Made by a program: the position numbers and the translations under genes. A DNA stretch of 64,000 nucleotides from Allomyces macrogynus ATCC 38327 (Eukaryota; Blastocladiomycota; Blastocladiomycetes; Blastocladiales; Blastocladiaceae). The notes beneath the pieces were generated by a model. That model saw nothing but the letters and a program-made list of their open reading frames with translations, had not been told where the DNA came from and did not search any database. Numbering within the stretch: position 1 is the stretch's first letter; every line of letters starts with the position of its first letter. Below are positions 481-15,498 of this stretch, one piece after another. Where the stretch lies: contig GG745355.1 in assembly GCA_000151295.1 (NCBI GenBank), positions 380,191 through 444,190 on the forward strand, in the 5' to 3' direction.

Positions 481-485
481 GGTGG
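481..485. repeat. Left target-site duplication (GGTGG)
   Basis: GGTGG directly precedes the first base of the element and recurs directly after its last base at 15494-15498. The flanking sixth bases do not match on either side, so the duplication is 5 bp. Confidence 0.8.
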
Positions 486-511
486 TGGCGCCGACCTCAG
501 GGTCGGCGCCA
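486..511. repeat. Left terminal hairpin
   Basis: A perfect 11-bp inverted repeat (486-496 with 501-511; arm TGGCGCCGACC) around the 4-nt loop TCAG lies at the extreme left end. The equivalent right-end hairpin has loop TCAA on the same strand, whereas a strict inverted repeat would give CTGA there. Confidence 0.85.
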
Positions 512-1158
512 CATGTGCCCTAGGACCCTGCCCTAGGTCCAACCCTAGGTCAAAATGCTGTCCTAGGTCCACGCCGCTCCAGGACCACCACCTCGATGAA
601 CCCCCACCGCGGCCACTTCGATTAATGGTTCTCAACATGCCCCTGTAAGCCTGGGGACCTGGACAGGAATTCTGGGACCTAGGTCCACGCCGGTCGGGGA
701 ATGGAATTCGGGGATATGTACCGCGAGCAAGTCTCAGAAAGGGTGCTGGGGATGGGTATACGGGGAATTGGGACCTAGGGATGTGTGCCTGGGACCTAGG
801 TCCACGCGCGGGCAGCGCAGCTGCCCTTGGGGCCAGGGGGTTCGGGGAATGCTTGGAGATGGGTTGGGAAGGTTTGTGGACACACTTGGGCGAACTATGT
901 CCAGGGTGTGTCCACTCCAAATGGCCTCCCAGATAGGTTTTGACACACTGGACACACTGGACAGGGTTGAAAAAATAGATGGCTATAGAAAAAGGGGGGA
1001 GAAGATGTGCACAATCTGCACACATCCCCCTTTTTTTTTATTTCTGAACATCAATTGAAGTGTGTCCAGTGTGTCCAGTGTGTCCATGGGTCTGGGCGGC
1101 CATTTAGAGTGGACACACCTGGACATAGTTTACCCAACTATGTCCACTGGACCTATTT
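486..1158. repeat. Left terminal inverted repeat
   Basis: This 673-bp segment is the reverse complement of 14820-15493 with only a handful of substitutions and a 1-bp length difference in an A/T run. The outer part carries seven CCTAGG palindromes (519, 532, 544, 562, 678, 774 and 795), mostly as GGACCTAGG or CCTAGGTCC. The inner part has tandem TGTCCAGTG units near 1055-1085 and on the opposite strand near 940-965. The open frames through it are repeat translations, not genes. Confidence 0.95.
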
Positions 1159-1166
1159 ACAAAGCT

Positions 1167-3488
1167 CTACTCACTGTCATCGTCTGAGAGGTCCATTGCC
1201 GCTGGACCACAATACTCGTACGAGGTAACCTTCCGCCCATCCACCACCTTGCGCTTCTGAATGAAAAGCTTGTCATCACCCCGCTTGGTCGTGTCCACGG
1301 CTTGAGTCAAGGATACCCCGAGGTGAGTGCTTGACACCACTTGGTGGCCTGGGAAACGTCTCTCGACATACTTCTGGTACATGGTGTAGATGTCCCTGCT
1401 GTCCATGACCTTCTCCACCTCCACGGCCCGGCCAGGCTCCATGAGGTTCCGCGGGAAGCCCCCATAGTCCACAAACTCCTTGATAAGCGCAGCAACAGGG
1501 TCAATGCAAGCTGCCGCCATGGCATCACAGTCCTCATTCTGTGGGAACTTGGACAGACGAATGCCCTTCAGGTCCAGGTTCATGATGTACGTGAAAATCT
1601 TGTTTGCGTTTGCCTTGACAAACTCGGCAAGCTGTTCAAAGTAATCCTCATCACAGTGGTGAATGTTTGAAACCTTGAGGCAAAACACTCGGTGACCGGT
1701 TGCTGTAAGCGGCAGAATTGCTTCGTTGTTCGAGTTAATCATGAAATTGTTCATGTTCTTGGCCACGTAGCGGCGCATGGACTTTTTGTTGATGAGAATC
1801 TTGTCGTCTGTGGTCATGTTCTTGAGCTTATCAAACATGGACCTGTGCTGCTTGAACCCCACTGCTGGCATCTCATCAAACAACACCAACGACTTGTTCT
1901 TGAGCTCTGAGTTGAACGTCTGCGCAAGGAACTGGTCTGCATTGTTCAGGGTCAGGCACAGCTCCTTTCCAAGCAGATGCTCAGACAACGTCTGGTAGAA
2001 GAACCCCTTGCCAGTCCCCTCGAGACCAGTGATGCAGAGGACCACCCCATTGGCTTTGCTCGACGTGAACAGTTCCTGCATCCATTTCAGGACATACGTG
2101 TACTCTGTCTCATGGTTGCTGCAAATGACTTGCAGAATGTAGTCGAGGTATGGTGCGACCTCATCCCGCTCCACATGGCAACCCAGATTGGTTGCAGCAA
2201 ACCCCGGGAAGGCATTGAAATGCTCAATGAAGCATTTCCCAGACTGCTCTCCCCACGTTGGCTTGTGGAAATCGAAAATCCGGGTCTTGACCTGTGGCAT
2301 GTACCAGCCAAGGAGGTGATGGATGGTCATACCAACCGTCTCGCCAGGAACATTGAGCAGCCAGGGGTCATGAATCGACGTGCGGAAATAGTACTTGCCC
2401 ACATACAAATCCTTTCGACAGAATTCGCCCATGTAGCACTTGAGCACCTCCTTGTAGCTTTCCTGGTCATCCTTGTCATTAAGACGACCAATGTGGTGTT
2501 CCACCTTGAATGCCCACTCCTGGTCGTACGATGGTTCCCTTTTCAAAACCTCTGCAACAAATGCCTTGGGGTCATCACAGTGGTCGGGAAAGTCCTTTTC
2601 CTGCAGCTTCGTTTGGTTATGCACAATCGGCTTCTCTGCCCACTTGACATCAAACCCAGTTTGCTGAACCGTGTGTTGATGCAGTTCCTCGAGAAGCTGC
2701 TCATTGACGCGTTCGCTTTTGACCAGCATCACGCCATCAAAGCAAAGGACACTTGGTGCAATGTCACGCTCACGGAAGAACTCAATCGCCTCCATCAGAA
2801 TGATGCTCTCCACTGCTTGGAACACATTTGCCATGACTGAGCCCTTGTTCACAACCGAGACAGAGCGTTCCTTTGAGAATTGAACAATGACCGGGTAATC
2901 GGCGGCAATCTGCGGGTACGCAACATTGTACAGCGTCTTGTGCATCTCCATGAGCTCTGGGTGAAGGCCTCGGGGTGGATGTTCACTAAAAATGACGCGC
3001 AGGAAATCGGACTTTTCCTTGAGCTTGTACTTGGACAGCGCCTCATCGCGATTCTCGAGGTACAGGTCCAGAGCCTTGCTGTTGAGGTTGTAAACCGACA
3101 AGATGGTCTTGAAAATGGATGGAGCGGCTGCCACCATGTCAATGTCCTGCAGCACACCCGCCGCCAGGGCACTCCGAAAGTCCTTCTTCATCCCCTGCAG
3201 AGAAGTACTGGTTGCATAGAGACGTCCAAAGCGCTTCTCTTGGTTCCGCTTCTTGTTTGTGAACGAGTAGACAGTCTCCTTGCCATCCCCATAGGACAGG
3301 TTGAATAGGCTGTGGTAGACCTTAAGCTGCTTCTTGATGTCCTGGGGAACACCCGAGTGCTTCTTGGTGAGGTCCTTGAGCACGTCCATGTTGACAAATT
3401 CATGGAGAATGACTTGGCGACTGTCATTCAGGAGCTTGTCAAGGCGGGTCATGGTTTCCTTGAGCTGGGGCGAGATTGTGTTCTGCAT
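1167..3488 (-). CDS. TV-Pol-like DNA polymerase fused to superfamily 3 helicase
   Basis: A 773-residue replication protein, read leftward from ATG 3488 and ending a few bases inside the left TIR boundary. The N-terminal half shows the motif series of the transposon-virus polymerase (TV-Pol) family: GRLYATSTSLQG at about 88-99, DIDMVAAAPS at 115-124 and CFDGVM at 249-254. The C-terminal half is a D5-like SF3 helicase with Walker A GLEGTGKG at 488-495, Walker B LVLFDEM at 534-540, a sensor segment NFMINSNNE at 581-589 and an arginine-bearing TGHR at 597-600. The same fusion is known in PLVs and virophages, where it is the main replication enzyme. The reading frame is intact. It is transcribed away from the zinc-ribbon gene at 3618, so 3489-3617 is a divergent control region. 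Very confident for the helicase, confident for TV-Pol. Confidence 0.9.
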   Translation of the reverse strand: MQNTISPQLKETMTRLDKLLNDSRQVILHEFVNMDVLKDLTKKHSGVPQDIKKQLKVYHSLFNLSYGDGKETVYSFTNKKRNQEKRFGRLYATSTSLQGMKKDFRSALAAGVLQDIDMVAAAPSIFKTILSVYNLNSKALDLYLENRDEALSKYKLKEKSDFLRVIFSEHPPRGLHPELMEMHKTLYNVAYPQIAADYPVIVQFSKERSVSVVNKGSVMANVFQAVESIILMEAIEFFRERDIAPSVLCFDGVMLVKSERVNEQLLEELHQHTVQQTGFDVKWAEKPIVHNQTKLQEKDFPDHCDDPKAFVAEVLKREPSYDQEWAFKVEHHIGRLNDKDDQESYKEVLKCYMGEFCRKDLYVGKYYFRTSIHDPWLLNVPGETVGMTIHHLLGWYMPQVKTRIFDFHKPTWGEQSGKCFIEHFNAFPGFAATNLGCHVERDEVAPYLDYILQVICSNHETEYTYVLKWMQELFTSSKANGVVLCITGLEGTGKGFFYQTLSEHLLGKELCLTLNNADQFLAQTFNSELKNKSLVLFDEMPAVGFKQHRSMFDKLKNMTTDDKILINKKSMRRYVAKNMNNFMINSNNEAILPLTATGHRVFCLKVSNIHHCDEDYFEQLAEFVKANANKIFTYIMNLDLKGIRLSKFPQNEDCDAMAAACIDPVAALIKEFVDYGGFPRNLMEPGRAVEVEKVMDSRDIYTMYQKYVERRFPGHQVVSSTHLGVSLTQAVDTTKRGDDKLFIQKRKVVDGRKVTSYEYCGPAAMDLSDDDSE

Positions 3489-3617
3489 TGTTCCTTACTT
3501 TTGGAATGAGAAAAAAAAAGAGGGGATATGCACGAGATTATATGCGTTTGAACGCATCGATAATCCAGTCGTGTTGCAAATTAAGTCCTGAAGTTTACAA
3601 ATTGGTACCAAGCAAAG
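3489..3617. promoter_or_regulatory. Divergent promoter region between replication gene and zinc-ribbon gene
   Basis: 129 bp between two outward-facing start codons. It holds an A-rich run (aaaaaaaa, about 3511-3518) and alternating AT stretches such as gattatatgcg. It must carry the start signals of both early-side genes; no single motif is decisive. Confidence 0.45.
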
Positions 3618-4334
3618 ATGGACGAAATCCGCCAATATACCAAGGAACTATTCTGGTGTGCAAAGCCTGGAAAGCAAAATCCACCCAAGTCACCAGAATG
3701 GCTTGTAGACCGGCTCTCTGCCTTGTTGGAGATGCCAGTGAGAGAGGTTGAGCTGAAAATACAGCTTCGAATCCTACTTCAAGGTTTTGAACACGTCGGG
3801 CACCACAAAAAACAGCCAGATGAGGATTTGACATGTCTTTGTGGAATTCATGTCAATGAAGTGTGGATTGTGGGGAATGGCCCAGTGAAAATTGGGATTG
3901 GGACAACATGCATTAACCGAATTGATGAAGCCATGGGTAAAAAGATTAACAAACTAATCAAAATACGTGAGCGGAAGACATTTGACTGTGTGCCATGTGG
4001 AAGGCGTCATCTGAAAACACAAGGATGTCCACTCAACAAGAAGCCTGTCCAGATTCAAACGCGAACCCCGAGTCCACCGCCAGCCTACTCTCTAATGCCC
4101 CCAGTAAAAACGTGTGTCAAATGCTCAAAACCAAATTCGACCAAGTACGCCACATGTCAGCCATGCATGCAGAAAGCAAAGCATTGCGCGACAAAAGGAT
4201 GCTCCAAACTCGTGTTCAAGGAGGGTCACCAGATTTGCTATCACTGCCACATTCAGGCGTCAGGTCCCACAAAACAGTGTCGCTGTGGCAAAATCATCAA
4301 GGCAACCTACAACAGTTGCTTCCTTTGTAAGTGA
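3618..4334 (+). CDS. Multi-zinc-ribbon viral protein
   Basis: A 238-residue protein starting at ATG 3618. The middle part has a CLCG motif (C73, C75) followed by GIGTTCI with C98, a pattern seen in small Cys-containing domains of large DNA viruses. C124, C127 and C137 follow. The C-terminal third has three C4-type clusters: C166/C169/C180/C183, C190/C195/C207/C210 and C221/C223/C234/C237. A proline-rich linker (about 149-163) separates the halves. Such arrays usually bind nucleic acid or protein partners. I do not recognise a named family. Placed between the polymerase-helicase and the recombinases, it could be a replication accessory or a transcription factor, but that is inference. Confidence 0.75.
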   Translation: MDEIRQYTKELFWCAKPGKQNPPKSPEWLVDRLSALLEMPVREVELKIQLRILLQGFEHVGHHKKQPDEDLTCLCGIHVNEVWIVGNGPVKIGIGTTCINRIDEAMGKKINKLIKIRERKTFDCVPCGRRHLKTQGCPLNKKPVQIQTRTPSPPPAYSLMPPVKTCVKCSKPNSTKYATCQPCMQKAKHCATKGCSKLVFKEGHQICYHCHIQASGPTKQCRCGKIIKATYNSCFLCK

Positions 4335-4350
4335 TTCTCAAACGCGTTTT

Positions 4351-4393
4351 GGACCTAGGATTTTTTTTCTTGTCCTAGGATAAACAAAAAAAC
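4351..4393 (+). promoter_or_regulatory. Promoter with T-run flanked by two CCTAGG palindromes
   Basis: CCTAGG occurs at 4354-4359 and 4374-4379, bracketing the T-run ATTTTTTTTCTTG (4360-4372), just before the A-rich leader and ATG 4394. The T-run matches that in front of the major capsid gene. CCTAGG is the word repeated seven times in each TIR, so one DNA-binding protein could recognise both places. Confidence 0.55.
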
Positions 4394-5542
4394 ATGGAAC
4401 AAATTCTTCAGCAGCTTCTCGAGGGTCAGGCTGTCATGCTGAACTGCATTGCCCAGCTTGAACGTGGTGTTACAGTCATGACACAATTCGTTGAACGATT
4501 CCAGACAGCCATGGGTGTGAAGGCCGAGGAACCACTTGAGGAACCACTTGAGGACCAGCCTGAGGAAGTTATCGAGCTGCCTGTTGCCGATTCGGAATCA
4601 GAGATTGTGATTCAGGAACACGAACCACTTGAGGAATTTGTGTTTGAACCGCTCCTCAAGGAGTACGTCCATGATGCCAATGACAAGCCGTGCGAAAAAG
4701 CCACCAAGAAGCGCCGTGAAAATTTGCTGACGTGGTTCAAGGGCAATGTGTCACAGATGAAGGGGAGTGAGGGGCTCGACATTGTCGCCGAATGGTCACG
4801 ACTATTCGACCTGATGAACGTGCGTCAGCTCAAGGACACGGCCGCTGCCTTGAACAGCATCAAGCTCTCTGGAAAACGTTTCTCGAACGTGGACATTGAG
4901 GACCTCCACCACCAGTGCCACGAATGGCGCAAAACCAAGGACAAGATGACCAGCGTGCTCAACGCAAAGAAGCCCCTGGTGGTGTCCCTCGACCAATGCA
5001 AAGCCTATGCTGCAACCGTCCCCGTCCAGCCACTGCCAGACGGTCTCTTGGCCATTTTCATTTCAGCTGCTGTGGGCCTGCAGTGCGACCCAGTGTACCT
5101 GACGTGTGCCAAGACCGAGGAGTACCCCTACCTCGAAGTCGAGGGTGAGCACCTCTGGATGCGCGGTCCGATTATGAGCGCAAAGGCCAAGGACAAGGGG
5201 TACAACATCAATGTGCTCATCGACCCAGCATTCGCCAGCCACATCACCGCCAGCGTCCAAGAGCGAGCCAAAACGGGTCAGAAATTCGTTTTCGCCGATT
5301 TGGTGGACAAGGACAAGGACAAGAGCTTTGACCGCTACTCCAGACTCATCCGCACAGTATCCCAGAGCATTCCGGAGCTGAACGGTGCAAGCACTGTCGA
5401 TTTCCGCAAGGCTCACGTGACCCACGACCTGGGCCTGTACAAGCGCAACGCCATGACCTATGAGGAGCTCAACGCCCGGTTCTCTGCACGTGGGCACAGT
5501 CTGGCCGTGCTGGACCATTACTACCACCCGGACGCGGAATAG
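4394..5542 (+). CDS. Tyrosine-recombinase-like protein with N-terminal coiled coil
   Basis: 382 residues. Positions 1-40 look like a coiled coil, followed by an acidic E/P-rich linker (about 44-85, with two PLEEPLE units) and a helical region. The C-terminal part resembles a tyrosine recombinase catalytic domain: DFRKAHVT with R338, then ARGHS with H368 and DHYY, where Y377 lies nine residues after H368, the usual His-to-Tyr spacing. In the segment that usually reads GLR, this protein has GLQ (228-230). The first catalytic arginine therefore seems to be missing, and the residue three before R338 is valine where His is common. It may be a degenerate or repurposed recombinase that binds but does not cut DNA. 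It is co-directional with the DDE integrase 22 bp downstream. Confidence 0.6.
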   Translation: MEQILQQLLEGQAVMLNCIAQLERGVTVMTQFVERFQTAMGVKAEEPLEEPLEDQPEEVIELPVADSESEIVIQEHEPLEEFVFEPLLKEYVHDANDKPCEKATKKRRENLLTWFKGNVSQMKGSEGLDIVAEWSRLFDLMNVRQLKDTAAALNSIKLSGKRFSNVDIEDLHHQCHEWRKTKDKMTSVLNAKKPLVVSLDQCKAYAATVPVQPLPDGLLAIFISAAVGLQCDPVYLTCAKTEEYPYLEVEGEHLWMRGPIMSAKAKDKGYNINVLIDPAFASHITASVQERAKTGQKFVFADLVDKDKDKSFDRYSRLIRTVSQSIPELNGASTVDFRKAHVTHDLGLYKRNAMTYEELNARFSARGHSLAVLDHYYHPDAE

Positions 5543-5564
5543 ATTTTGTTGAGTACTTGTAAAG

Positions 5565-6410
5565 ATGGCCAAGAAGCAGTCCAAGGAACAAGACCATAGC
5601 AACGACCCAAATCGCCAGCCGCTGAGTGGACCCCAGGAGCTATTCTTGAAACAGTTGTATTATGAACGGTTTCCAGGCGCAGGGTACCACGCTCTGTACG
5701 AGGCAGTTGTGCGTGAGGCGCCATCGACTCTCCCCCACATTTACTGCAACCAGGTTCGGGAATGGCTGAACACACAGGAGCTGTACCAGCACAACAAACA
5801 GCCCCCTCCCAAGCGCGACATTCGGCGCATCCAGGCCACCTCTGTTTCGCGCGTCTACCAGCTGGACCTCATCGACATGGGCAAAGACCGTGTGTGGAAG
5901 GGCTTTCACTATATTTTGAACGTGGTGGACGTGGCCAGTCGCAAGTTGTTCCTGGAGCCACTCAAGAAAAAGACACAGGACACAGTGTACCTCGCATTCA
6001 AGAAAATCGCCAAGCATGAGCACTTTGGCAACAAGCCGACCATCCACATGGACAATGGCGGTGAATTCGCTGCGTTGAAACGCGACCCGAGCATTCGATG
6101 TGTGCTGGGCAAGCCCCACGTACCCATGGGCCAGGGCATGGTCGAGTCGCTGAATAAACAGGTGCGGCGTTATGTCAACATGTACCTGCAGCAAGGCTAC
6201 AATGACTGGCCCATGGCTATCCCTCGCTTCCAGGACTCGTTGAACTCTTTGTCGCGGAGAGGCACTGGCAGTCTGTCGGCCAATGAGGCTCATGAGATGC
6301 CCAAGGAAGAGTCCAAGGTATATTTCGAGGAACTGAAAGCAAAACGAACGCGCAGCGACGACCCGCTCAATGACAATTTGCTGCCACTTGGTGCCACTGT
6401 GCGCTACTGA
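5565..6410 (+). CDS. Retroviral-type (rve) DDE integrase, catalytic part
   Basis: 281 residues from ATG 5565 to a TGA at 6408-6410. The N-terminal region resembles the helical domain of Polinton integrases. The catalytic core is clear: D101 in YQLDLIDM, D163 in HMDNGGEF and E194 in GMVESLNK. In this family the enzyme joins element ends to target DNA, giving a short duplication as seen here. The TGA falls at the beginning of the C-terminal DNA-binding domain (the LPLGATVRY segment). The same frame stays open for 434 further nucleotides and supplies the missing domain. The core would be made, but without its tail unless the stop is read through. This is the likely source of the TG...CA ends. 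Confidence 0.92.
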   Translation: MAKKQSKEQDHSNDPNRQPLSGPQELFLKQLYYERFPGAGYHALYEAVVREAPSTLPHIYCNQVREWLNTQELYQHNKQPPPKRDIRRIQATSVSRVYQLDLIDMGKDRVWKGFHYILNVVDVASRKLFLEPLKKKTQDTVYLAFKKIAKHEHFGNKPTIHMDNGGEFAALKRDPSIRCVLGKPHVPMGQGMVESLNKQVRRYVNMYLQQGYNDWPMAIPRFQDSLNSLSRRGTGSLSANEAHEMPKEESKVYFEELKAKRTRSDDPLNDNLLPLGATVRY

Positions 6411-6845
6411 TTGCCATACAAGACTCAGCTGGAGAAAAAGAACATGCCCACGTACAGTGCCACACTGCATACCATCGTTCAGCGTCGAAAAGGCACGGGC
6501 ATCAGCAGTCCTTCGTATAAAATTTCAGACATGCCTCGCTGGTACAATGCCAGCGATTTGCAGGTCATCAAAAAGGTCGAGGCGTATGAACGTGAGAAGC
6601 AGCCTGTGGTGCAGCGCGTCAAGAACACTTCGAATGTGGTCATGGTCCCAGCTGAGCAAGTGCTGAGGCGCTCAGAGCGTCTTTGCAACAAGCAGGCGCC
6701 AGAAGCAGCGCCAGTGGAGCCTGTCCCAGAGCCTGCCCCAGAGCCGGAAGAAGAAGAGCCATTCGTGCCACGTCGCTCAAAGCGTATCCAGAATAGGTTA
6801 GCGCAACAGGTAGAGACTCAGGGTAACATGAACGCCAACCGCTGA
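6411..6845 (+). pseudogene. Integrase C-terminal domain, separated by an in-frame TGA
   Basis: In the same frame as the integrase, directly after its TGA. The 144 residues have the pattern of the SH3-like C-terminal domain of Polinton integrases: a lysine-rich beta start, SATLHTIVQRR, SYKISDM, then a W/Y-containing segment and LQVIKKV. A tail with P/E repeats (about 95-122) and two RRS-[EK]-R basic motifs (near 83-86 and 125-128) may be a nuclear localisation or chromatin-targeting tail. There is no ATG at its start; the first codons are TTG CCA. It is either the second half of a nonsense-mutated gene or reached by readthrough. Its end overlaps the converging fibre gene by 48 bp. Confidence 0.7.
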
Positions 6846-7103
6846 CAGAGTGACATCACTCATCCAGTTGAAGCAGTAGGTGTGGGTCGAGTCAAGATAC
6901 ACTGGGGCTGATGCACTCATCCATGTATTGCCAGACTTGACGCTCTGGGCAGAGACCAGGGTGAGTGAACCGGGGAAATTCCCTGCTGTGCTGCTCGTGT
7001 AATCGTAGAGATATACGGTGGCATTGTGCTCAGCAGACGGATTGCTCGTGTACCAGCACAATGTGTTTGTCATGTACCATCCACTGGTTGAGACAGTGAA
7101 CAC
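6798..7103 (-). CDS. Fibre protein distal head, in shifted frame
   Basis: About 100 residues in another frame that directly continue the fibre protein encoded upstream. The segment starts FTVSTSGWY and is rich in T, S, Y and V with alternating hydrophobics, as expected of a beta-sandwich receptor-binding head. The two frames join near 7103 at a short C-run (G-run on the coding strand); one extra G would restore continuity with NASGTGG upstream. No good independent start signal is seen, so it is best read as the fibre C-terminus after a frameshift. Confidence 0.6.
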   Translation of the reverse strand: MFTVSTSGWYMTNTLCWYTSNPSAEHNATVYLYDYTSSTAGNFPGSLTLVSAQSVKSGNTWMSASAPVYLDSTHTYCFNWMSDVTLSAVGVHVTLSLYLLR

Positions 7104-8812
7104 CCACCAGTGCCGGACGCGTTAAACGCACCTGCAGGAACTGAGCTGTTGATGATGGCTGTCTGCATGTTTGTGCCAGTGAGTTTCACAAATGAGGTGG
7201 CTGTGAACGCAATGGGCGCCGAAGAGTTGAACATAATCTGGCCGTCGCGGAGGGTTGGAAGCATGCTCGCCTGCACCTGTCCCCATGTTGCTGCATGGTT
7301 GTTTGCCGTGGCATCTGAGCACTGAACCGTCCCGTTTACCTGCAGCTTCGAGGTCCCACTGGGAGCCGCTCCAATCGACATGTTCCCACCAGTACACACT
7401 TGGATACTGTTGCTGCTGCTCGTGTTCAATTCACCGTAACCATATGCGCGGTTGAAGGCCAAATTCATGAGCTTGGAGCCTGTGAGTGTTGTGAAATCAA
7501 TGTAACACATGCCGTTACTTCCACCACCATCGTTGCAGCGCATTTCAAAGCCTGCATTCCCGCTGTTATAGAGGTAAAGTCCTTGGGTGGTTGCCCAGTT
7601 GGCCCCGATGCTGCCAGAGACAACAAGCGCACCTGTTGTTGCACTGGTCGTGGCAGTGGTATCAGTGATGCGTGTCTGGCCACCAACCCACAAGGCTTTC
7701 CCAACACCCACCCCACCTGATACGACCAGGGCACCAGTCGACGAACTGGTACTGTCAGTGGTGTTGGTGAAAGTGTTTTGGTTTGCTGTGCTGACCATTC
7801 CAGCGGTCCCAGTGGCAATCAGCGAGTTGACTTGGGACAGGGGCGTCAGGTGGGTGCCCACAGTGGCTGTAGCACCACTGACATTCCCAGTTGCAACCAC
7901 ATTGCCGCCCACATACAGATTCTTTGCAACACCCGCCCCACCAGCCACTGTCAGTGCACCACTGCCAGAAGACACGCTGTCAGTCGTCAGAGTCAGTGCC
8001 ACGGCAGACGATGGGGTGAGAAAGCCCGTGGTGCCTGCTGAAATCAAGCCCTGAACTTGTGTGAGGGTTGGCACATGGGAGCCGGCGACAGCCGTGGCAG
8101 CTGTAAGGTTCCCTGTGACAGTGGCATTACCACCAATGTTGACGCTCTTTGCCACGCCCAGACCCCCCTGAATGACAACACCGCCCGTTGACATTGTGGT
8201 GCTCTCTGTCGTGTTGCCAAATGTGAATTGCTGGCCCAATCCAAGTGTTGACTGCGATAGTGTTCCGCTCACAATGGACCCATTCACAGACGACACCTTG
8301 GTGCTCACGTCTGGCAGATTGGCCAGCGGGACGGTCCCAGTCAGTTTTGTTGAGTTGAGACCTGAGATTTGCGTGTTGGAAACCTGGCCAATGAGCTTGG
8401 TAGCACTCAGACCAGTGAGACTTGTGTCGCCAAAGGTCCCTGTGACCTGCGATGAGGGGATGCTTGGGAGGACACTCAGAGGCAGCACGCCTGAAGTAAT
8501 TTTGGCCGCGTCCAGTGACACGACCTTTGCATTTGTAACCGAGGCGTCAGTCAGCCGTGAGCCATTCACAGTGGACAGCTTGGCGTCTGAAATACCACCA
8601 TCTTTCACAGACAGCTGGTTGTTGGCATTCACGGAAAAGGTGGCCGTGTCGTAAGCCAGACTCACATTGCCACCAGTGACTGTCAGGGGAGGGGTTGCCA
8701 CTGTGGATGCTGTGCCTGCCACTACATTGGCGATTGCTGTGGCCAATTCGGCGTCTGTGGCATACGAGCTATCATCCGCAATGAGCCCAAATACGTTTAG
8801 TGGAGTGTTCAT
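7070..8812 (-). CDS. Virion fibre/spike protein
   Basis: 580 residues from ATG 8812, Ser/Thr/Gly/Val-rich and almost free of cysteine. After a short N-terminal segment (likely capsid anchor) come slender repeat regions with T-G-x-V and L-x-x-L-P patterns. Then come several copies of a unit of the form STGALVVSGGVGV...LxVGG (about 206-232, 283-309, 357-379 and 392 onward), a repeat common in phage tail fibres and fibres of large algal viruses. Between repeats, LTQVQGLI and LSQVNSLI look like short helices. In this family such proteins form trimeric host-recognition fibres. It is the only long minus-strand gene in the right half and starts back-to-back with a small plus-strand gene. The last residues before the stop at 7070 are out of frame relative to the head at 6798-7103. 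Confidence 0.75.
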   Translation of the reverse strand: MNTPLNVFGLIADDSSYATDAELATAIANVVAGTASTVATPPLTVTGGNVSLAYDTATFSVNANNQLSVKDGGISDAKLSTVNGSRLTDASVTNAKVVSLDAAKITSGVLPLSVLPSIPSSQVTGTFGDTSLTGLSATKLIGQVSNTQISGLNSTKLTGTVPLANLPDVSTKVSSVNGSIVSGTLSQSTLGLGQQFTFGNTTESTTMSTGGVVIQGGLGVAKSVNIGGNATVTGNLTAATAVAGSHVPTLTQVQGLISAGTTGFLTPSSAVALTLTTDSVSSGSGALTVAGGAGVAKNLYVGGNVVATGNVSGATATVGTHLTPLSQVNSLIATGTAGMVSTANQNTFTNTTDSTSSSTGALVVSGGVGVGKALWVGGQTRITDTTATTSATTGALVVSGSIGANWATTQGLYLYNSGNAGFEMRCNDGGGSNGMCYIDFTTLTGSKLMNLAFNRAYGYGELNTSSSNSIQVCTGGNMSIGAAPSGTSKLQVNGTVQCSDATANNHAATWGQVQASMLPTLRDGQIMFNSSAPIAFTATSFVKLTGTNMQTAIINSSVPAGAFNASGTGGCSLSQPVDGT

Positions 8813-8844
8813 GTGGATTATTATATTCTATGCACAAAATTAAA
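8813..8844. promoter_or_regulatory. Short divergent promoter, fibre gene / small plus-strand gene
   Basis: Only 32 bp separate the fibre ATG (8812) from the ATG at 8845 (17 bp if the in-frame ATG at 8830 is used). It holds the AT-rich stretch attattatattcta at about 8817-8830. Any start elements for both genes must overlap here or lie inside coding DNA. Confidence 0.4.
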
Positions 8845-9120
8845 ATGAACAGCTTTGAAGAACAGTTTGAGACACTGGACGAGGTCGGTGAGTACCTTGG
8901 TCTGCCCAAAGCCTTCTACGACCTCGATGATGGGGCCAAGGAAGCCTACATTGACCGGTACATGAAGGAGAAGCAAAAGAAGCTGCGCCGGTACCAGTTT
9001 GTCAAGGACACCACAGACCAGGACCGTGCCTCCGCAGTCTGTGACCGAATGCGTCTCAAACTGAAAAACCGTGAATTGGAGCGGGAGAAGGCCCAATTAA
9101 AACTACTTCTTGGATTATAA
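8845..9120 (+). CDS. Small charged helical protein
   Basis: 91 residues from ATG 8845 (an in-frame ATG at 8830 adds five). It is highly charged: an acidic N-terminal half (FETLDEVGEYLGL) and a K/R/E-rich C-terminal half (about 45-88) predicted to be one long helix or coiled coil ending in LLLGL. No family recognised. Position in the capsid half and size suggest a scaffold or core protein, but that is inference only. Confidence 0.6.
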   Translation: MNSFEEQFETLDEVGEYLGLPKAFYDLDDGAKEAYIDRYMKEKQKKLRRYQFVKDTTDQDRASAVCDRMRLKLKNRELEREKAQLKLLLGL

Positions 9121-9180
9121 AGTTGAAAACGTGCTAGTTTGTAGCATCTATAAAGTTGAAAACGTGCTAGTTTGTAGCAT
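9116..9180 (+). repeat. 32-bp direct repeat, two copies
   Basis: Two identical 32-bp copies (9116-9147 and 9149-9180) starting TATAAAGTTGAAAACG, with a 33-bp period. The first overlaps the stop codon of the preceding gene. They lie in front of the next small gene, so they may be a duplicated promoter or regulatory site. Confidence 0.8.
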
Positions 9181-9264
9181 TCCAAAATTGTAAAATGTGG
9201 AACTTGCACAGTGCAATTCAGACAATTTAATTTTGTTGCTGAAAGATAAACATTCATTTTCAAC

Positions 9265-9504
9265 ATGGCACGCCAAAGTGGCACCAGAGGGCCGTGCAAA
9301 GATTCTGAGCCTCGCAAGGAACTCATCAGAAAAATCTTTCAACAGAACTCAGATGTCATTGTCCCTTACAACAACCCTGACAGGAAACTTGGTGCCGGTT
9401 ACCACATTATTAAGACAGGTAGGCACAGGTATCATGACTCGCTGTCCAGGGTCATCAAAGAACTTGTCGAGTACTTCAACTCAATTGACCGCAAACCACT
9501 TTGA
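9265..9504 (+). CDS. Small basic protein
   Basis: 79 residues from ATG 9265, beginning MARQSGTRG. It is rich in K/R, with a central GAGYHIIKTG segment and an amphipathic helix (SLSRVIKELVEYF) near the end. The following gene begins 12 bp downstream, suggesting co-transcription. The family is not recognised; DNA condensation or capsid-core binding is possible from charge alone. Confidence 0.55.
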   Translation: MARQSGTRGPCKDSEPRKELIRKIFQQNSDVIVPYNNPDRKLGAGYHIIKTGRHRYHDSLSRVIKELVEYFNSIDRKPL

Positions 9505-9516
9505 AGCAAAGAGGAC

Positions 9517-10917
9517 ATGGAGTTGCTCGACTCTGTGATGCGGGGCATAAACAAAATCAAACAACGCAGGCAGAAAACTGTCGAGGATGGCGGGGAAATT
9601 TCGGATTCGGATGAAGATGAAATGGATGTGGACAACAGGGCAAACGATGTTGAGCGGTCAGACGTTGAAATGTCAAGCGATGAGGAAGCGGGACCGTCCG
9701 GCACAAACCCCAACAGAGACATACAGTATCCTCCGCCAGATAACATGCGGGTGACGCGTGGACGTGCACAGCCTGAGATTGTCATTGAAGTGCCCCATCC
9801 AGATATGCAAATGGTGCCTGCTAACCACTCTCTCCCTCCCGTCGTTGCTCCACATGGGCAGATGGTACCTGTAGACCCCTCTCTCCCTCCCATCCTTGCT
9901 CGCCAAATGGCAGAGGAACCGCCCACTGCTCTTGTGCCTGTGCCGGACGATTATGAGCAAGCAGTATCAACCGCACGAAACAACAATGGTGTCGCCGGCC
10001 CAGTGGGTGCACACTGGAACCCAACAGTGGGTGGCAATCACCAGGCCGTCATGCTCGCACAGCAGAACAACACCCTGAACCAGCAGAACATCCAGAACAA
10101 CCTTACGCAGAACAATCTCACGCAGAACACACTCAACCAGCAGAACATCCAGAATATCCAGAACATCATTCAGACATACCCAGGCATCGAACCAGCACTC
10201 GCCACACTGTTCCAGGGCATCCAAGCCACTTTCCTCAATGTCAGTGAGCGCAACGATGCACTCCTGCAAGCCCTGAATGGCCTGGAAATGGAACTCAAGG
10301 CAGAGGGTGGGAACACTGCCCAGCTTGCAAGCCAGTACGTCCAAGAGCAGCTTGACCACTTTACAAGTGAGCAAACAGCGCAAAACTTTGAAAACAATCG
10401 CGAGATTAAGGACAACAAGGTGCGAATCAACAAGATTGGGCTCATTACAGAAGCACTCGCAGATGGGCAATCTTCAATGCAGGCAACGCTCGAGCAAGTC
10501 CCTGAACAGCTCTCGAGCCTCCCTGGTCGTGTCATTGACGCTCTCAACCAGTCAGCCAATAACCCCCTCAACAAGTTGTCAGGCATCCTTGAACAGGCGC
10601 AGAACACGGTGGAGGTCATTGGCGCCAATGGTGGGAGCCGTGGTGGTGAAGGAGATGGTGGTCCAGGTCTCCAGGAGCAGAAGATGATGAACGACATGCT
10701 CAAGCAAATTGCCAGTGCACTAAATAAGACCCCTCGCATGCCATGGGACGACAAGCCACGCACTGTCGACAACTACTTTGCCACTGTTCCCCGTTTCCGC
10801 AAGAACCCACGTGCGCCTTTCACAGTGCCAGCAAAGGTTGGGGCGCGTGTCATCAAACCACAGGGACCAAAGGTCTACTATGTCCCACAAGGCTTTGGTG
10901 GTGTCCAGGACAAATAA
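9517..10917 (+). CDS. Uncharacterised structural-type protein with N/Q repeats
   Basis: 466 residues. The N-terminal 60 are basic, then strongly acidic with SDSDEDEMDVD. A proline-rich region (about 68-148) follows and holds two PSLPP/HSLPP units spaced 17 residues apart. Then there is an Asn/Gln-rich block (about 180-222) built of NQQNIQN and NLTQN units, a long helical region (about 225-370), a glycine-rich hinge and a basic C-terminal segment with VPRFRKNPRAPF and KVYYVPQGFGG. No named family is recognised. Its place immediately before the packaging ATPase, and the basic tail, suggest an internal virion or core protein. The repeats could make it oligomeric. Confidence 0.65.
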   Translation: MELLDSVMRGINKIKQRRQKTVEDGGEISDSDEDEMDVDNRANDVERSDVEMSSDEEAGPSGTNPNRDIQYPPPDNMRVTRGRAQPEIVIEVPHPDMQMVPANHSLPPVVAPHGQMVPVDPSLPPILARQMAEEPPTALVPVPDDYEQAVSTARNNNGVAGPVGAHWNPTVGGNHQAVMLAQQNNTLNQQNIQNNLTQNNLTQNTLNQQNIQNIQNIIQTYPGIEPALATLFQGIQATFLNVSERNDALLQALNGLEMELKAEGGNTAQLASQYVQEQLDHFTSEQTAQNFENNREIKDNKVRINKIGLITEALADGQSSMQATLEQVPEQLSSLPGRVIDALNQSANNPLNKLSGILEQAQNTVEVIGANGGSRGGEGDGGPGLQEQKMMNDMLKQIASALNKTPRMPWDDKPRTVDNYFATVPRFRKNPRAPFTVPAKVGARVIKPQGPKVYYVPQGFGGVQDK

Positions 10918-10938
10918 TTTTCAGCATAAAGTATAACG

Positions 10939-11727
10939 ATGTTCACTGTGAAAGCACTTGACAACCAGGCCCATCGAGGGGGTCCCTATCTGGTCCCGAA
11001 GATACCAGCCACTGTGACCCTGCTTGGGCCCAAAGCAGCAGGGAAATCAACAGTCGCACTGAACATGATTTTGTCACCGCAGTGTTGGCGGCACTGTTTC
11101 TCTAAAATTTACGTGTTTTCGCCCACCTCACACCTTGACCCAAAGTGGCAGCAGCTTACTGAGACGCCTGTCCTCAAACACGACCCGAAAGCCCCCTACA
11201 ACCCAGAGCTGCTCGTCGTGTCACGCGACTCCTTTATTCATGAAATTGATGAAATGGAGACCAAATTAAAGGAAATCGCCATGCTCCAGGACCCGGAGAA
11301 GCGCGACTTCACCAAGCACCCTGGAAAAATTGACAACATGCTCATTGTGCTGGACGATATTGCAGGCACAAAGTTTGCCCGCTCACGCTTCCTGGACAGC
11401 TTCATTGCACTGTCACGCCATCAACACATTTCCATGATTATCTCAGTGCAGCTTTTCAAAGCCATTACCCCCCTGGCTCGAAACAACATGTCATATTACG
11501 TGCTATTCGAGACTTACAACAGAAGTGAACTGAGAACCATCTATGAAGCAATTGGAGGTTCCTTTACATGGGAAGAGTTTATTGAAGTGTGCAACCAAAT
11601 TTTCGAGAAACCGCATGCCACATTCAACTTCAACATGCAGAACGCAGGCCTCAGGTATCGTTACATCAATTCATTCCACTCCTTTATCATGCGAAAACAG
11701 CATCTGGATGAGGATGAGTACTCGTGA
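10939..11727 (+). CDS. DNA-packaging ATPase (FtsK/HerA, A32-like)
   Basis: 262 residues from ATG 10939. Walker A is GPKAAGKST (30-38), Walker B MLIVLDD (134-140), and a polar Q occurs in SVQLF (169-173) at the sensor position. Length and motif spacing fit the genome-packaging ATPases of Polintons, PLVs, virophages and NCLDVs, which drive DNA into the preformed capsid. It stands directly before the major capsid gene, the usual neighbourhood. The stop at 11725-11727 overlaps the beginning of the T-rich capsid promoter motif. Confidence 0.92.
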   Translation: MFTVKALDNQAHRGGPYLVPKIPATVTLLGPKAAGKSTVALNMILSPQCWRHCFSKIYVFSPTSHLDPKWQQLTETPVLKHDPKAPYNPELLVVSRDSFIHEIDEMETKLKEIAMLQDPEKRDFTKHPGKIDNMLIVLDDIAGTKFARSRFLDSFIALSRHQHISMIISVQLFKAITPLARNNMSYYVLFETYNRSELRTIYEAIGGSFTWEEFIEVCNQIFEKPHATFNFNMQNAGLRYRYINSFHSFIMRKQHLDEDEYS

Positions 11728-11762
11728 TTTTTTTTCTTGTGTCTTTTCTAAACCCCCTCAAC
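11727..11762 (+). promoter_or_regulatory. Major capsid gene promoter (T-run motif)
   Basis: ATTTTTTTTCTTGT at 11727-11740, followed by TTTTCTAAACCCCC and then ATG 11763. The first part is the same as the motif before the recombinase gene (4360-4372) and close to those before 13107 and 13384. Confidence 0.6.
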
Positions 11763-13076
11763 ATGACTTCACCCGTGACTAACTTTGCCAATGTCCTCCC
11801 GACGTCACTCGGCAAGGAGATGATTTACACTCCTCCCAAGCAGGCACCAGTTGCTGACCGCACGACCATCAAATTCCCGTGCACACAGGGTTCTGCATTC
11901 TCTGCATCTGGCAATGGTCTTGGTTCGACCATCCGTTTCCAGATTCCGGCTGTGAACAAGATTGTGGACTTGTCGGCTGGTGTGCGTTTTTCGTTCAAGG
12001 CCTTGACGTACAAGGACGCAGCATGCACCCAGCCCATGACAGCTGGTGCCCCAGAGACGTACTTTACCGAAGGTATCCACTCGTGTGTTCAACGCCTTCG
12101 TGTGCTTAGTTCCTCTGACCAGTTGCTTGAAGACATTGACGGGTATGGCTTACTTTCACAGATGTTGAGTGACGCCACTGTCCCATCCGCGCTCAAGACC
12201 ACAGTGCTGTCAATTGGCCAGGGCTATGGCGACCCTGTGCACCACTCGGGCTCAAACCGCCAGTTCATGTTCCCACTGCACTCTGCTCTCCTGACCCAGG
12301 ACCGCTGGCTCAACCTCAAGCACACTTCGGGCCTCATCATTGAAATTACGCTCGCTGAGCCCAAGGCTTGCATGATTAACACCACGGGCACAGTTGGTGG
12401 CTATGTGGTCAGTGAGCCATACCTTATGGTCGACACAGTGACCCCCCACGCTGCCCAGCTTGCTCAACTCGATGCTGCATGGGCCTCAGCTGGTGGCGTC
12501 ATGTTCACTGGTACCACGTGGGCACGCAAGACTCCTGCCTTTGTCACCCCCACAGGCTCGATTGTCGTGTCGGACCGTCACAGCATGCAGAAATGCATCC
12601 TTGCAGCATTCTGCACGCCCCAGTACCATGGCAAGGCCAACGTGGACCCCCTGGCTCGCGGTCTGCCCATCACGAGTTACCAAATCAAGAACGCCGATGA
12701 GATGGTCCAGCTGCGTCCCATTGACTGCACAGGCTATGCCCCAGAGGCCCTGCATGAGCTTGAGGTCTTTGCAAAGGGCCACACCGTTGGTGAACTGACA
12801 CCTGCCAAGTGGATTGACCGTGGCTATGTCTCAGGCGGCGCGTTTGTGCCACCTCAGGGTCAGTTCATCCTTGCACGCACCTTTGAGACCTCCTCCCTCA
12901 TCTCAGGTTCAGACAAGGCCAAGAAGTCGGGTGTCGACCTTGAGATTCTCACGACTGGTGACCCCTTCCCAGTTGACAACACCCTTGGCACTGTTGCCTA
13001 TCGCTGCGATGTCTTTGTTGGCTACGTGACCTCGATTTCCTTCAATGCTGACGGCTCAGTGGATGTCTTCAATTAA
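11763..13076 (+). CDS. Major capsid protein, double jelly-roll
   Basis: 437 residues from ATG 11763, chosen as the first ATG after the promoter motif. The strand pattern and key segments match double-jelly-roll capsid proteins of PLVs: an N-terminal strand-rich domain, a mid-protein segment with FMFPLHSALLTQDRWLNL followed by IIEITLAE (the end of jelly roll 1), then a second domain with CDVFVGYV strands at the end. In this group the protein forms trimers that build the icosahedral shell. The frame is fully open, with no lesion. It is flanked by the ATPase and two minor capsid-type genes in the same direction. Confidence 0.88.
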   Translation: MTSPVTNFANVLPTSLGKEMIYTPPKQAPVADRTTIKFPCTQGSAFSASGNGLGSTIRFQIPAVNKIVDLSAGVRFSFKALTYKDAACTQPMTAGAPETYFTEGIHSCVQRLRVLSSSDQLLEDIDGYGLLSQMLSDATVPSALKTTVLSIGQGYGDPVHHSGSNRQFMFPLHSALLTQDRWLNLKHTSGLIIEITLAEPKACMINTTGTVGGYVVSEPYLMVDTVTPHAAQLAQLDAAWASAGGVMFTGTTWARKTPAFVTPTGSIVVSDRHSMQKCILAAFCTPQYHGKANVDPLARGLPITSYQIKNADEMVQLRPIDCTGYAPEALHELEVFAKGHTVGELTPAKWIDRGYVSGGAFVPPQGQFILARTFETSSLISGSDKAKKSGVDLEILTTGDPFPVDNTLGTVAYRCDVFVGYVTSISFNADGSVDVFN

Positions 13077-13106
13077 TTTTCTTGTTAGATAGTTAAACCC
13101 CCTCCC
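13076..13106 (+). promoter_or_regulatory. Promoter of small capsid-block gene
   Basis: ATTTTCTTGTTAGATAGTTA at 13076-13095, then a CCCCCTCCC leader and ATG 13107. It shares TTTTCTTGT with the capsid promoter and AGATAG with the next one. Confidence 0.5.
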
Positions 13107-13361
13107 ATGAACATCCGCTCAATTTGGACCTCATTCAAGCTTGCCCTTGCAGCTTATGGGCATCACCTCATGAACAACTTCAAGAACATTACTTATGGTA
13201 TTCGTGAGGTAGCCCGTTTTGCAGCTGTCATTCCTCCACTGGCTGGTCCTGCTGCATTCGTGACCAGTGCCACCAACATTGCGGATGACATTTATGACCT
13301 CTTTGACGCATGGTCAGGTACAAGCCCCTCGGACAGTGGTGGAACAGCAGGAGGCGTGTAA
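13107..13361 (+). CDS. Small amphipathic/hydrophobic capsid-block protein
   Basis: 84 residues between the major and minor capsid genes. It begins with a basic amphipathic helix (MNIRSIWTSFKLALAAYGHH), has a hydrophobic mid-part rich in A, V, P and I (AAVIPPLAGPAAFV) and a Gly/Ser-rich end. Small proteins of this kind next to the capsid genes of PLVs and virophages may be membrane-active or minor capsid components, comparable in position and character to adenovirus pVI. No sequence family is assigned. Confidence 0.6.
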   Translation: MNIRSIWTSFKLALAAYGHHLMNNFKNITYGIREVARFAAVIPPLAGPAAFVTSATNIADDIYDLFDAWSGTSPSDSGGTAGGV

Positions 13362-13383
13362 ATTTTTTCTCAGATAGCTTTAA
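13362..13383 (+). promoter_or_regulatory. Promoter of penton gene
   Basis: ATTTTTTCTCAGATAGCTTT at 13362-13381 abuts ATG 13384. It shares the T-run and AGATAG with the motif before 13107. Confidence 0.5.
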
Positions 13384-14169
13384 ATGTCAGTCCCTCGCAT
13401 CAAATATATCACCGTGTGCTCCAAGGACCTGGAGAATGGGGTCTCATGGCGCCTCCCATGTGCCATCCAGACCCGGGGCATTCGAGTGGTCAGTGCCATG
13501 ATTCCCAACACATGGTACAACATCACTGAGACCAACAATATACTCTATATTCGTGCCAACTATAACTATAACTATTATGAGGGTGGTGTTATGGTGCCTG
13601 CTGCATATTACACTCCACAATCACTCTGCGACAAGCTCACAGAACTGCTCAACAACAACAATGCCGAATTTAACTGGAGGGGGACGTGGTCCGTGACCTG
13701 GAACTCGTCCACCGGTCGTGTCACCATCGCCAACAGTGACATGCACTTCCGTATTTGGCGCAACAAGCCAAATAGCATCCATCGAAATCTCGGATTTGGC
13801 ACTGAGCCTTGGTCGGACGATAGCGTGAATATTACTGGTATTGCCGGCTATTCAATAACTGGTGATTACGCCATCGGCCTAGCCCGCATTGAGACGATTC
13901 ACCTCAAGTCCAACCTCGGAACCATGTTGGCAGACTACACCCACTCGTCCTTCCCCAATGTTGGCTCACTCGTGGCGTCTTTCCATGTGCAGGGTGGTTG
14001 GGGTCAATCATTCGTATACCAGAACTCGTCCAGTGAATTCTTCAACTTTGATTCGAAAGCCATCACTGAGGAAGTCACGGAAATTGAGCTTGAACTGTGT
14101 GATGACAAGCTGCGACCCATCAACTTTAATGGCCACAACTGGACCATCCAGCTCGCGTTCCTGACCTAA
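13384..14169 (+). CDS. Minor capsid (penton) protein, single jelly-roll
   Basis: 261 residues. The N-terminal half has strands around YITVCSKD and GIRVVSAMIPNTWYNI, then the segment AAYYTPQSLCDKLTELLN, the 'G/A-x-Y-T-P-x-x-L' pattern followed by a TGRVTI strand that is conserved in penton proteins of Polintons and virophages. The C-terminus ends with LELCDDKLRPINFNGHNW and a hydrophobic strand (IQLAFLT), again typical. In this family pentamers occupy the capsid vertices. The frame is intact. Confidence 0.85.
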   Translation: MSVPRIKYITVCSKDLENGVSWRLPCAIQTRGIRVVSAMIPNTWYNITETNNILYIRANYNYNYYEGGVMVPAAYYTPQSLCDKLTELLNNNNAEFNWRGTWSVTWNSSTGRVTIANSDMHFRIWRNKPNSIHRNLGFGTEPWSDDSVNITGIAGYSITGDYAIGLARIETIHLKSNLGTMLADYTHSSFPNVGSLVASFHVQGGWGQSFVYQNSSSEFFNFDSKAITEEVTEIELELCDDKLRPINFNGHNWTIQLAFLT

Positions 14170-14199
14170 TGAAAATTTATTTTTGATTGTATATAGTAA

Positions 14200-14316
14200 A
14201 TGCTCGGCTTTGAAGTTGCGATTCTGTGCGTGAACATCGCCATCCTCCTGTCGCAGTTTGCCATCATTGGCTACAATGCCTGCCACAACAAGGGCCGCAA
14301 ATTTAATCGCGACTAA
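14200..14316 (+). CDS. 38-residue single-pass membrane peptide
   Basis: ATG 14200 to TAA 14314-14316. Residues 5-25 (EVAILCVNIAILLSQFAIIG) form one hydrophobic helix followed by a basic tail (NKGRKFNRD), so it would insert with the tail on one face. It is preceded by an AT-rich promoter-like stretch (atttatttttgattgtatatag), as for the other capsid-block genes. A small membrane protein in the late block suggests a role at a virion or host membrane; function is unknown. Confidence 0.55.
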   Translation: MLGFEVAILCVNIAILLSQFAIIGYNACHNKGRKFNRD

Positions 14317-14374
14317 GTCTAAACGCAAACGCACATGTGCCTCGTTTTTTTATTCAGACTCAAAGACAAAGGCA

Positions 14375-14536
14375 ATGAAGGTTCTCGGGACGTCAACTCA
14401 AAACCTCCACGGGCAGGAGCCAAAGACAGTGGAGCAACCACCCAGAACAACCAGCCAGAGAACCCGGCCAGTCTTTCCTACAGCAGTCCGCATACAGCTC
14501 AAGCCCAGCGAAGTCTACCGCCTATCCTTTAACTAA
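14375..14536 (+). CDS. Short basic protein of 53 residues
   Basis: ATG 14375 to TAA 14534-14536, preceded by a T-run (gtttttttattcag) like other late genes. It is rich in Q, P, T and R with no hydrophobic segment and ends in VYRLSFN. An overlapping frame from 14335 is also open for 65 residues but has weaker composition. Weak support beyond promoter and position. Confidence 0.35.
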   Translation: MKVLGTSTQNLHGQEPKTVEQPPRTTSQRTRPVFPTAVRIQLKPSEVYRLSFN

Positions 14537-14582
14537 CCGTGTCTCGCACACTGCACGGAAACCATTCGTGCAATGTGTATTT

Positions 14583-14780
14583 TCATTCATATCGTGGAGG
14601 TGGTGGAGGGTCATTTTCCTGGCGTGTCCAGTTGGAGCGGGCTACTACGACAATGGTTCCACAGACGTTGCAGAGGTACTCGACGTATATCACAAAGTTG
14701 GGCACGCGCGTGCACCATTTGGGTGGCACTGAACAGACACAGCTGACTGGCGTCTGGTTCATGGAGTTCATGGTGTTCAT
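14583..14780 (-). CDS. Possible small protein with PPxY motif
   Basis: 65 residues from ATG 14780, with two cysteine pairs (CVC near 14-16, CNVC near 37-40), a hydrophobic stretch around FVIYVEYL...TIVVVA and an end in PPPPPRYE, which contains a PPxY motif. It faces leftward just inside the right TIR, mirroring the position of the left-end gene. The plus strand is also open here (14539-14787), so either frame, or neither, may be used. Confidence 0.3.
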   Translation of the reverse strand: MNTMNSMNQTPVSCVCSVPPKWCTRVPNFVIYVEYLCNVCGTIVVVARSNWTRQENDPPPPPRYE

Positions 14781-14819
14781 GGTTTAGCACATGGCAAGAA
14801 AACTTTGGTGGCTGTCCGA

Positions 14820-15493
14820 AAATAGGTCCAGTGGACATAGTTGGGTAAACTATGTCCAGGTGTGTCCACTCTAAATGGCCGCCCAGACCCATGGACACAC
14901 TGGACACACTGGACACACTTCAATTGATGTTCAGAAAATATATAAAAAGGGGGATGTGTGCAGATTGTGCACATCTTCTCCCCCCTTTTTCTATAGCCAT
15001 CTATTTTTTCAACCCTGTCCAGTGTGTCCAGTGTGTCAAAACCTATCTGGGAGGCCATTTGGAGTGGACACACCCTGGACATAGTTCGCCCAAGTGTGTC
15101 CACAAACCTTCCCAACCCATCTCCAAGCATTCCCCGAACCCCCTGGCCCCAAGGGCAGCTGCGCTGCCCGCGCGTGGACCTAGGTCCCAGACACACATCC
15201 CTAGGTCCCAATTCCCCGTATACCCATCCCCAGCACCCTTTCTGAGACTTGCTCGTGGTACATATCCCCGAATTCCATTCCCCGACCGGCGTGGACCTAG
15301 GTCCCAGAATTCCTGTCCAGGTCCCCAGGCTTACAGGGGCATGTCGAGAACCATTAATCGAAGTGGCCGCGGTGGGGGTTCATCGAGGTGGTGGTCCTGG
15401 AGCGGCGTGGACCTAGGACAGCATTTTGACCTAGGGTTGGACCTAGGGCAGGGTCCTAGGGCACATGTGGCGCCGACCTCAAGGTCGGCGCCA
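14820..15493. repeat. Right terminal inverted repeat
   Basis: This 674-bp segment is the reverse complement of 486-1158. It carries the same seven CCTAGG words, the tandem TGTCCAGTG/ACTGGACAC units and a terminal 11-bp hairpin (15468-15478 with 15483-15493, loop TCAA). The few differences from the left copy include C/T substitutions near 15192, 15256 and 15343. Confidence 0.95.
15468..15493. repeat. Right terminal hairpin
   Basis: A perfect 11-bp stem with loop TCAA ends exactly at the last base of the element. The loop reads in the same direction as the left loop (TCAG) on the plus strand. Confidence 0.85.
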
Positions 15494-15498
15494 GGTGG
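15494..15498. repeat. Right target-site duplication (GGTGG)
   Basis: The same five bases as at 481-485, immediately after the terminal CA. Confidence 0.8.

Follow-up and report, generated by a model that had tools for sequence, protein, structure and literature searches.

How the ends of Polinton-like viruses (PLVs) without a protein-primed polymerase are copied is, to our knowledge, an open question. It is raised by a 15,008-bp element at positions 486-15493 of a 64,000-nucleotide stretch from the fungus Allomyces macrogynus ATCC 38327 (contig GG745355.1, positions 380,191 to 444,190 of the forward strand; "the window" below means this whole stretch). An earlier note on this DNA, made from the sequence alone, had described a complete PLV integrated in the fungus. 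Its boundaries proved exact to the base, with terminal inverted repeats (TIRs) at the ends and the duplication GGTGG on both sides, and its reading as an integrated PLV is supported by an rve integrase, an A32-type packaging ATPase, a predicted capsid protein and the TIRs. PLVs in A. macrogynus were already known; the new feature is a terminal palindrome in every lineage with a placed end. With a fold that is kept as its letters shift, inverted loops and clean duplications, these ends give the question of end copying, in one host, an answer that can be tested directly.

Terminal palindromes of fixed geometry

The capsid protein, used as a query, matched 36 stretches of the same genome (like the counts below a lower bound on matches, pieces being counted and not elements). 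Lineage A comprises 27 of these, the window copy included, at identities of 100% down to 70% (decayed pieces); the others belong to lineages B (three at 68-69%), C (one at 51%), D (four at 27-30%) and E (one at 32%). With the ATPase, integrase, replication protein and penton candidate as queries, 36, 29, 38 and 28 stretches were found. Further copies, for which the earlier note had proposed to look, are many, and their capsid sequences fall into five lineages or more. Lineage G (C55:981k) is proposed on an ATPase at 25-26% together with a capsid candidate; type H (C62) is distinguished by its palindrome, near which part of the replication protein finds a match. C-numbers (C24, C58 and so on) denote contigs of this genome, C48 holding the window element.

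All placed ends (lineages A-E and G, and type H) are palindromes 25-27 bp long, with TG at the start, CA at the end and 11-nt arms around a loop of 3-5 nt. The arm letters vary among lineages and copies (Table 1), while their complementarity is kept. Palindromes with an arm of at least 10 and a loop of at most 5 occur four times in the window element, at the two termini and, with the same geometry, at the two inner TIR edges; none is present in 48.5 kb of neighbouring DNA, where two have an arm of 9. Chance was rejected as an explanation of the observation. In lineage F (C66), whose end is not placed, one palindrome without TG...CA was seen in L087, and L088 contains no palindrome with an arm of at least 9 for the lineage-D element at C41:186k. 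Masked N covers all or part of three further ends: the left one of C42 and the right ones of C65 (lineage C) and C56 (D). A cross-lineage MAFFT alignment of the palindromes was misaligned and left out of the counts.

Compensatory change is observed in the A-type ends (31 ends, 28 distinct rows). Compared with shuffles that ignore the relatedness of the ends, 94.8% of cells are paired (shuffled 84.0 +/- 1.2), 26 cells have both sides changed (8.6 +/- 2.2) and the covariation score is 0.293 (0.111 +/- 0.016), values that none of 500 shuffles reached; structures slid along the same ends gave at most 51.6% paired cells and at most 5 cells changed on both sides. When C41, in which one arm is shorter by a base, and one other row are excluded, all arm mismatches but one are C/T or G/A, the kind of change that decay after insertion would leave. 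A search pattern in which three of the arm pairs could take any letters was found at 17 places, which include many related copies and are not 17 independent events; the free pairs are complementary in 17/17, and the backward control gave 0.

The inner part of each TIR (876-1147 and 14831-15104 of the window) forms a large, imperfect palindrome in which 9-bp units (TGTCCAGTG) are iterated. It closes with a perfect palindrome whose geometry matches that of the terminal one, and this region may act as an origin of replication or may once have been a terminus.

Inverted loops, target duplications and lone palindromes

Fifteen elements were read with palindromes at both ends, including one short element and one with its ends on two contigs (C24 and C51). 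The loop is inverted between the two ends of the same element in C58, C65 (D) and C62 (H), and in the window element it is inverted with one further change; it is alike at both ends in C61a, C72, C74 and C24/C51. For the other seven, six loops cannot show an orientation (symmetric, or C41) and C55 is ambiguous. In the window element three of eight TIR mismatches fall in the 4-bp loop (binomial p 1.1e-5), and in C58 three of 15 fall in the 5 bp of the loop (p 1.8e-4), the positions having been chosen in both cases after the mismatches were seen. Inversion of the palindrome would account for the loop mismatches in one step, as in rolling-hairpin replication. Parvoviruses replicate by rolling hairpins and carry their terminal palindromes in both orientations (flip/flop). 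The Allomyces ends share with them palindromes that, judged by sequence, are able to fold and that occur in two orientations; parvoviruses are an unrelated virus type, and here the palindrome is far shorter and no nickase was identified.

An exact 5-bp duplication flanks 14 of the 15 two-ended elements, the match of C24/C51 not being independent, as these ends were paired by palindrome type and duplication. An assembly join with chimeric flanks is rejected as very unlikely, because 13 of the 14 other two-ended elements with the same end type show the exact duplication. The left and right flanks of the window element each match the assembly once, and no empty site for it was found there. A short E-type element (C53:365336-368495, 3,160 bp) has both end palindromes and the exact duplication CGTGT; it is too short for the full gene set and is probably non-autonomous.

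B-type palindromes occur at ten places, six of them in three full elements and four alone. All four lone palindromes lie within exact 5-bp duplications (background 142/48,464 positions, 0.3%) and look like scars of lost elements. No lone palindrome was recognised among the ten A places, all of which coincide with TIR matches, or among the eight E-type places read.

A proposed replication through hairpin ends and its alternatives

We consider it probable, with some reserve, that these elements are endogenous PLVs with rve-integrated TG...CA ends and hairpin-based replication, which entered the genome repeatedly and whose loss leaves scars. The element's own rve integrase would join the TG...CA ends to host DNA and yield the 5-bp duplication. 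Outside the chromosome the virus DNA would be linear, and each end palindrome could form a hairpin whose stem is 11 bp long. Replication would proceed via these hairpins (self-primed, or by hairpin-telomere copying), with the virus helicase protein and a virus or host polymerase. Under such copying the arms would stay complementary despite changes in their letters, and the loop would come out inverted in about half of the cases. Divergent viruses would enter the genome repeatedly, older copies would decay, and some would be lost, one palindrome staying in its target duplication. That the ends form hairpins, that these serve in replication and that elements are lost by recombination is what we infer from the sequences. 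It is conceivable, and put forward here tentatively, that Allomyces PLVs as a whole are dsDNA viruses with hairpin ends of fixed geometry and largely free sequence, which would replicate through these hairpins, integrate by rve at the same TG...CA ends and exit by palindrome recombination with a 26-bp scar. Where capsid genes have diverged too far to be found by searches, a palindrome of fixed geometry could also serve to locate element ends and, through lone palindromes, earlier insertions.

Several observations weigh against replication through hairpin ends. The family and PDB scans yielded no nickase, no telomere resolvase and no clear DNA polymerase domain, and no family of site-specific nickases for the palindrome was seen in the general family scans, in which some domains are without any match. 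Two of the five measures for the A-type ends fall within the shuffles (pairs with two-sided change, 470/500; further pair types, 116/500), and these shuffles leave relatedness out of account. Of 36 A-type outer ends inspected, five have no terminal palindrome and were left out of the set of 31 (C57 left, C64 right, C61:995k right, C61:1234416 and C75:53501); the first three of these begin on, or adjacent to, an internal TG around TIR position 31. C55 has no matching duplication. C57 used the internal TG at TIR position 31 at its left end, yet has the exact duplication GATGG, and C64 likewise used an internal TG, with CGCAC/CACAC. Integration thus does not require the palindrome, whose role would lie elsewhere; this fits a role in replication without proving it. 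Finally, the palindrome letters are the same in the three full B elements, whose capsids differ at dS >1, so that in B the sequence itself seems constrained.

This constancy in B is also what would be expected if the terminal palindrome of an ordinary PLV provirus served only to bind a dimeric protein, for instance the integrase or an initiator of replication. rve integrases need TG...CA ends, and every lineage read starts with TG and ends with CA. For sequence recognition, however, the compensated arm changes within A and between lineages would be odd, the loops of some elements are inverted as units, and C57 could integrate with an exact duplication and no palindrome at one end; we regard the binding-site explanation as rather unlikely. 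The lone palindromes could have arisen as integrase insertions of short palindromic DNA, with just 26 bp present inside exact 5-bp duplications. Solo LTRs arise by recombination between end repeats, one repeat being left behind. Like these remnants of retroelements, a lone palindrome would be one terminal repeat left in its target duplication after loss of the body; it differs in being only 26 bp long and a direct repeat solely through being palindromic. As the palindrome equals its own complement, the ends of an element double as direct repeats, and recombination would leave exactly such a scar, which makes short insertions a doubtful origin.

It is still less probable that a PLV-derived transposon spreads within the nucleus only, its particle formation lost. 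Many copies are decayed (stops) and the fibre gene is split in the window copy, which speaks for such an element. Against it, capsid dN/dS is 0.06-0.24 in 14 of 17 pairs, those computable, a purifying selection expected only if particles matter. The B capsid genes are separated by dS of 1.2-1.5 (dN/dS 0.06-0.07), and the TIRs within B elements are near-identical (C59, 100% over 640 bases read; C67, 99.8% over 544 aligned, with 23 gap columns), so that their divergence preceded insertion. These sequence comparisons favour viruses that replicate and evolve outside these loci over copying within the genome. Mating between strains may be a route of spread.

Genes, relatives and known systems

Ten open reading frames (ORFs) of the window element were scanned against the protein family libraries Pfam, phrog and NCBIfam; the features are collected in Table 1. 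The element is a genuine, somewhat damaged provirus of a known kind, an endogenous PLV of Allomyces. Completeness, as claimed in the earlier note, holds for both termini and their duplications, but the fibre gene is split and the copy damaged. Its full morphogenesis set is borne out for the packaging ATPase and the predicted capsid, whereas the penton is a candidate that matches DUF5901 only, without NCBIfam or phrog match. The TIRs are near-identical as described (98.81% when aligned as one, 8 mismatches in 673 plus one gap column; arm pairs 486-1043/14936-15493 at 99% and 1026-1158/14820-14952 at 96%), though not the youngest in the genome, as C59 has 0/640 and C73 1/1125 mismatches. Its 15,008 bp and 673-bp TIRs fit PLVs, which bear TIRs and measure about 14-40 kb.

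Table 1. Features of the window element, end palindromes by type and lone palindromes in the genome.
Feature	Position	Strand	Remark
Target site duplication, left	481..485	.	GGTGG, read from sequence
Target site duplication, right	15494..15498	.	GGTGG, read from sequence
Left terminal inverted repeat	486..1158	+	
Right terminal inverted repeat	14820..15493	-	
Left terminal palindrome	486..511	+	11-nt arms, 4-nt loop TCAG
Right terminal palindrome	15468..15493	-	11-nt arms, loop TTGA
Inner palindrome, inner edge of left TIR	1120..1146	.	arm TGGACATAGTT, loop TACCC
Inner palindrome, inner edge of right TIR	14832..14858	.	
Replication protein, 773 aa	1167..3488	-	C-terminal DUF5906/phage-primase type helicase domain, Pfam E 4.9e-18
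Cys-rich protein, 238 aa	3618..4334	+	no family match
382-aa protein	4394..5542	+	no convincing family match
rve-type integrase, 281 aa	5565..6410	+	rve E 2.1e-8; retroviral integrase cores, best E 2.8e-5
Fibre protein, last part, other frame	6798..7103	-	fibre gene split in window copy
Fibre-like protein, main part	7070..8812	-	Av_adeno_fibre E 3.4e-5
466-aa protein upstream of ATPase	9517..10917	+	no convincing family match
Genome-packaging ATPase, A32 type	10939..11727	+	Pox_A32 E 6.6e-9; STIV B204 E 0.011
Major capsid protein, 437 aa	11763..13076	+	predicted double jelly roll
Penton/minor capsid candidate, 261 aa	13384..14169	+	DUF5901 E 3.3e-6
A-type end palindrome			TGGCGCCGACC and variants
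B-type end palindrome			TGCGTATGCCC
C-type end palindrome			TGTCCTATACC
D-type end palindrome			TGTCGTATACC
E-type end palindrome			TGGCGCTGCCC
G-type end palindrome			TGACGCATACC
H-type end palindrome			TGTCCCATACC
Lone B palindromes, 26 bp	C38:328006, C44:473240, C27:139127, C26:56441		four sites

As in other PLVs, a replication protein with a primase-type helicase stands in place of polymerase B. Besides DUF5906 in the C-terminal part, it matches a phrog DNA primase (E 2.1e-23), PDB primase 6k9c (E 7.1e-22 over the helicase part) and a P4-type primase C-terminus (E 1.3e-8, under the curated cut-off of that family); we take the helicase to be of superfamily 3, and the N-terminal part is assigned to no family. 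Of the features of Polintons sensu stricto, the rve integrase is present, and no polymerase B family match was found at E 0.1 in the ten scanned ORFs. With Polintons/Mavericks the element shares this integrase, the A32-type ATPase, the double-jelly-roll capsid (predicted here) and TIRs; it differs in having no DNA polymerase B match. The A32/FtsK-type packaging ATPase typical of PLVs was found, in 11/11 members. A Ulp1-type maturation protease had no match in the scanned ORFs, several of which match no family. The capsid profile gave only weak, unrelated-looking matches to PDB sequences (best E 0.0056).

Genes for a major capsid protein, ATPase and DNA helicase in A. macrogynus have been reported as integrated viruses (Bellas & Sommaruga 2021, PMC7805220), probably the same genome and elements. 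Unlike the present analysis, the excerpts of that paper covered here give neither ends nor duplications nor copy numbers for Allomyces, and "palindrom" and "hairpin" are absent from its main text. It places a PLV of Spizellomyces punctatus in a group with chitinase in 52%; no chitinase match was found among the ten scanned ORFs here. A "D5 primase-helicase" of A. macrogynus is given in PMC5294986 and could be the PLV protein described here. According to their main texts, PLVs of protists (Bellas 2023, PMC10120064) and cryptophytes (PMC12220804) are alike in size (about 14-40 kb), TIRs, primase-helicase, an rve integrase in some, short target duplications and intragenomic expansion; the former survey excluded Fungi, and neither main text contains "palindrom" or "hairpin". 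The literature excerpts covered give a 6-bp duplication as typical of rve integrases of the Polinton kind, against 5 bp here. Judged by titles and the beginnings of abstracts, none of the papers listed deals with palindromes or hairpins at the ends of PLVs or polintons (subscription and bioRxiv-only work lay outside this scope); where the main texts word-searched mention hairpins, the subject is the genome ends of giant viruses or the polyadenylation signals of virophages, and one mention is in a reference title.

Relatives in other collections are few. In a collection of 5.8 billion proteins, with a word-based pre-selection of 6,714 and 8,000 candidates, the capsid protein had three matches (Allomyces arbusculus, 94%; A. 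macrogynus ATCC 38327, 82%; one further at 42%). The replication protein had 20, namely 12 from Allomyces (A. macrogynus, A. javanicus) and eight distant helicases. The A. macrogynus matches have identities that parallel those obtained in the window's own genome. No confirmed locus was found in IMG/VR with the capsid (single sequence or alignment), the ATPase alignment, the lineage-G capsid candidate, the replication-protein alignment or the penton candidate.

Within the genome, the capsids of C74, C57 and C72 are 98%, 93% and 92% identical to that of the window (a second C72 piece 87%), while their replication proteins reach only 59-60%; by sequence comparison, such mixed identities are read as module exchange between lineages. 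The lineage A capsid copies L014 and L016-L018 differ from the window copy, by eye, in numerous R>C/H, T>M and P>L changes, which suggests that methylated CpG sites have decayed in the older copies. In the window copy the open frame of the integrase is 285 aa long, against 417 aa without stop in C61:1239323 and C57; at 5565-6845 of the window, the integrase frame is followed by one stop and then by a 144-aa basic stretch in the same frame. The last part of the fibre is a 107-aa open frame in the window copy, whereas the fibre runs to 676 aa without stop in four of 13 other rows (C58, C42, C61:244463 and C57) and to 733 aa in the B element C67. A 33-bp tandem pair, 97% identical, separates two gene blocks at 9116-9181. 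Directly behind the penton candidate, a 38-aa frame with a hydrophobic stretch (14200-14316, read by eye) may encode a small membrane protein.

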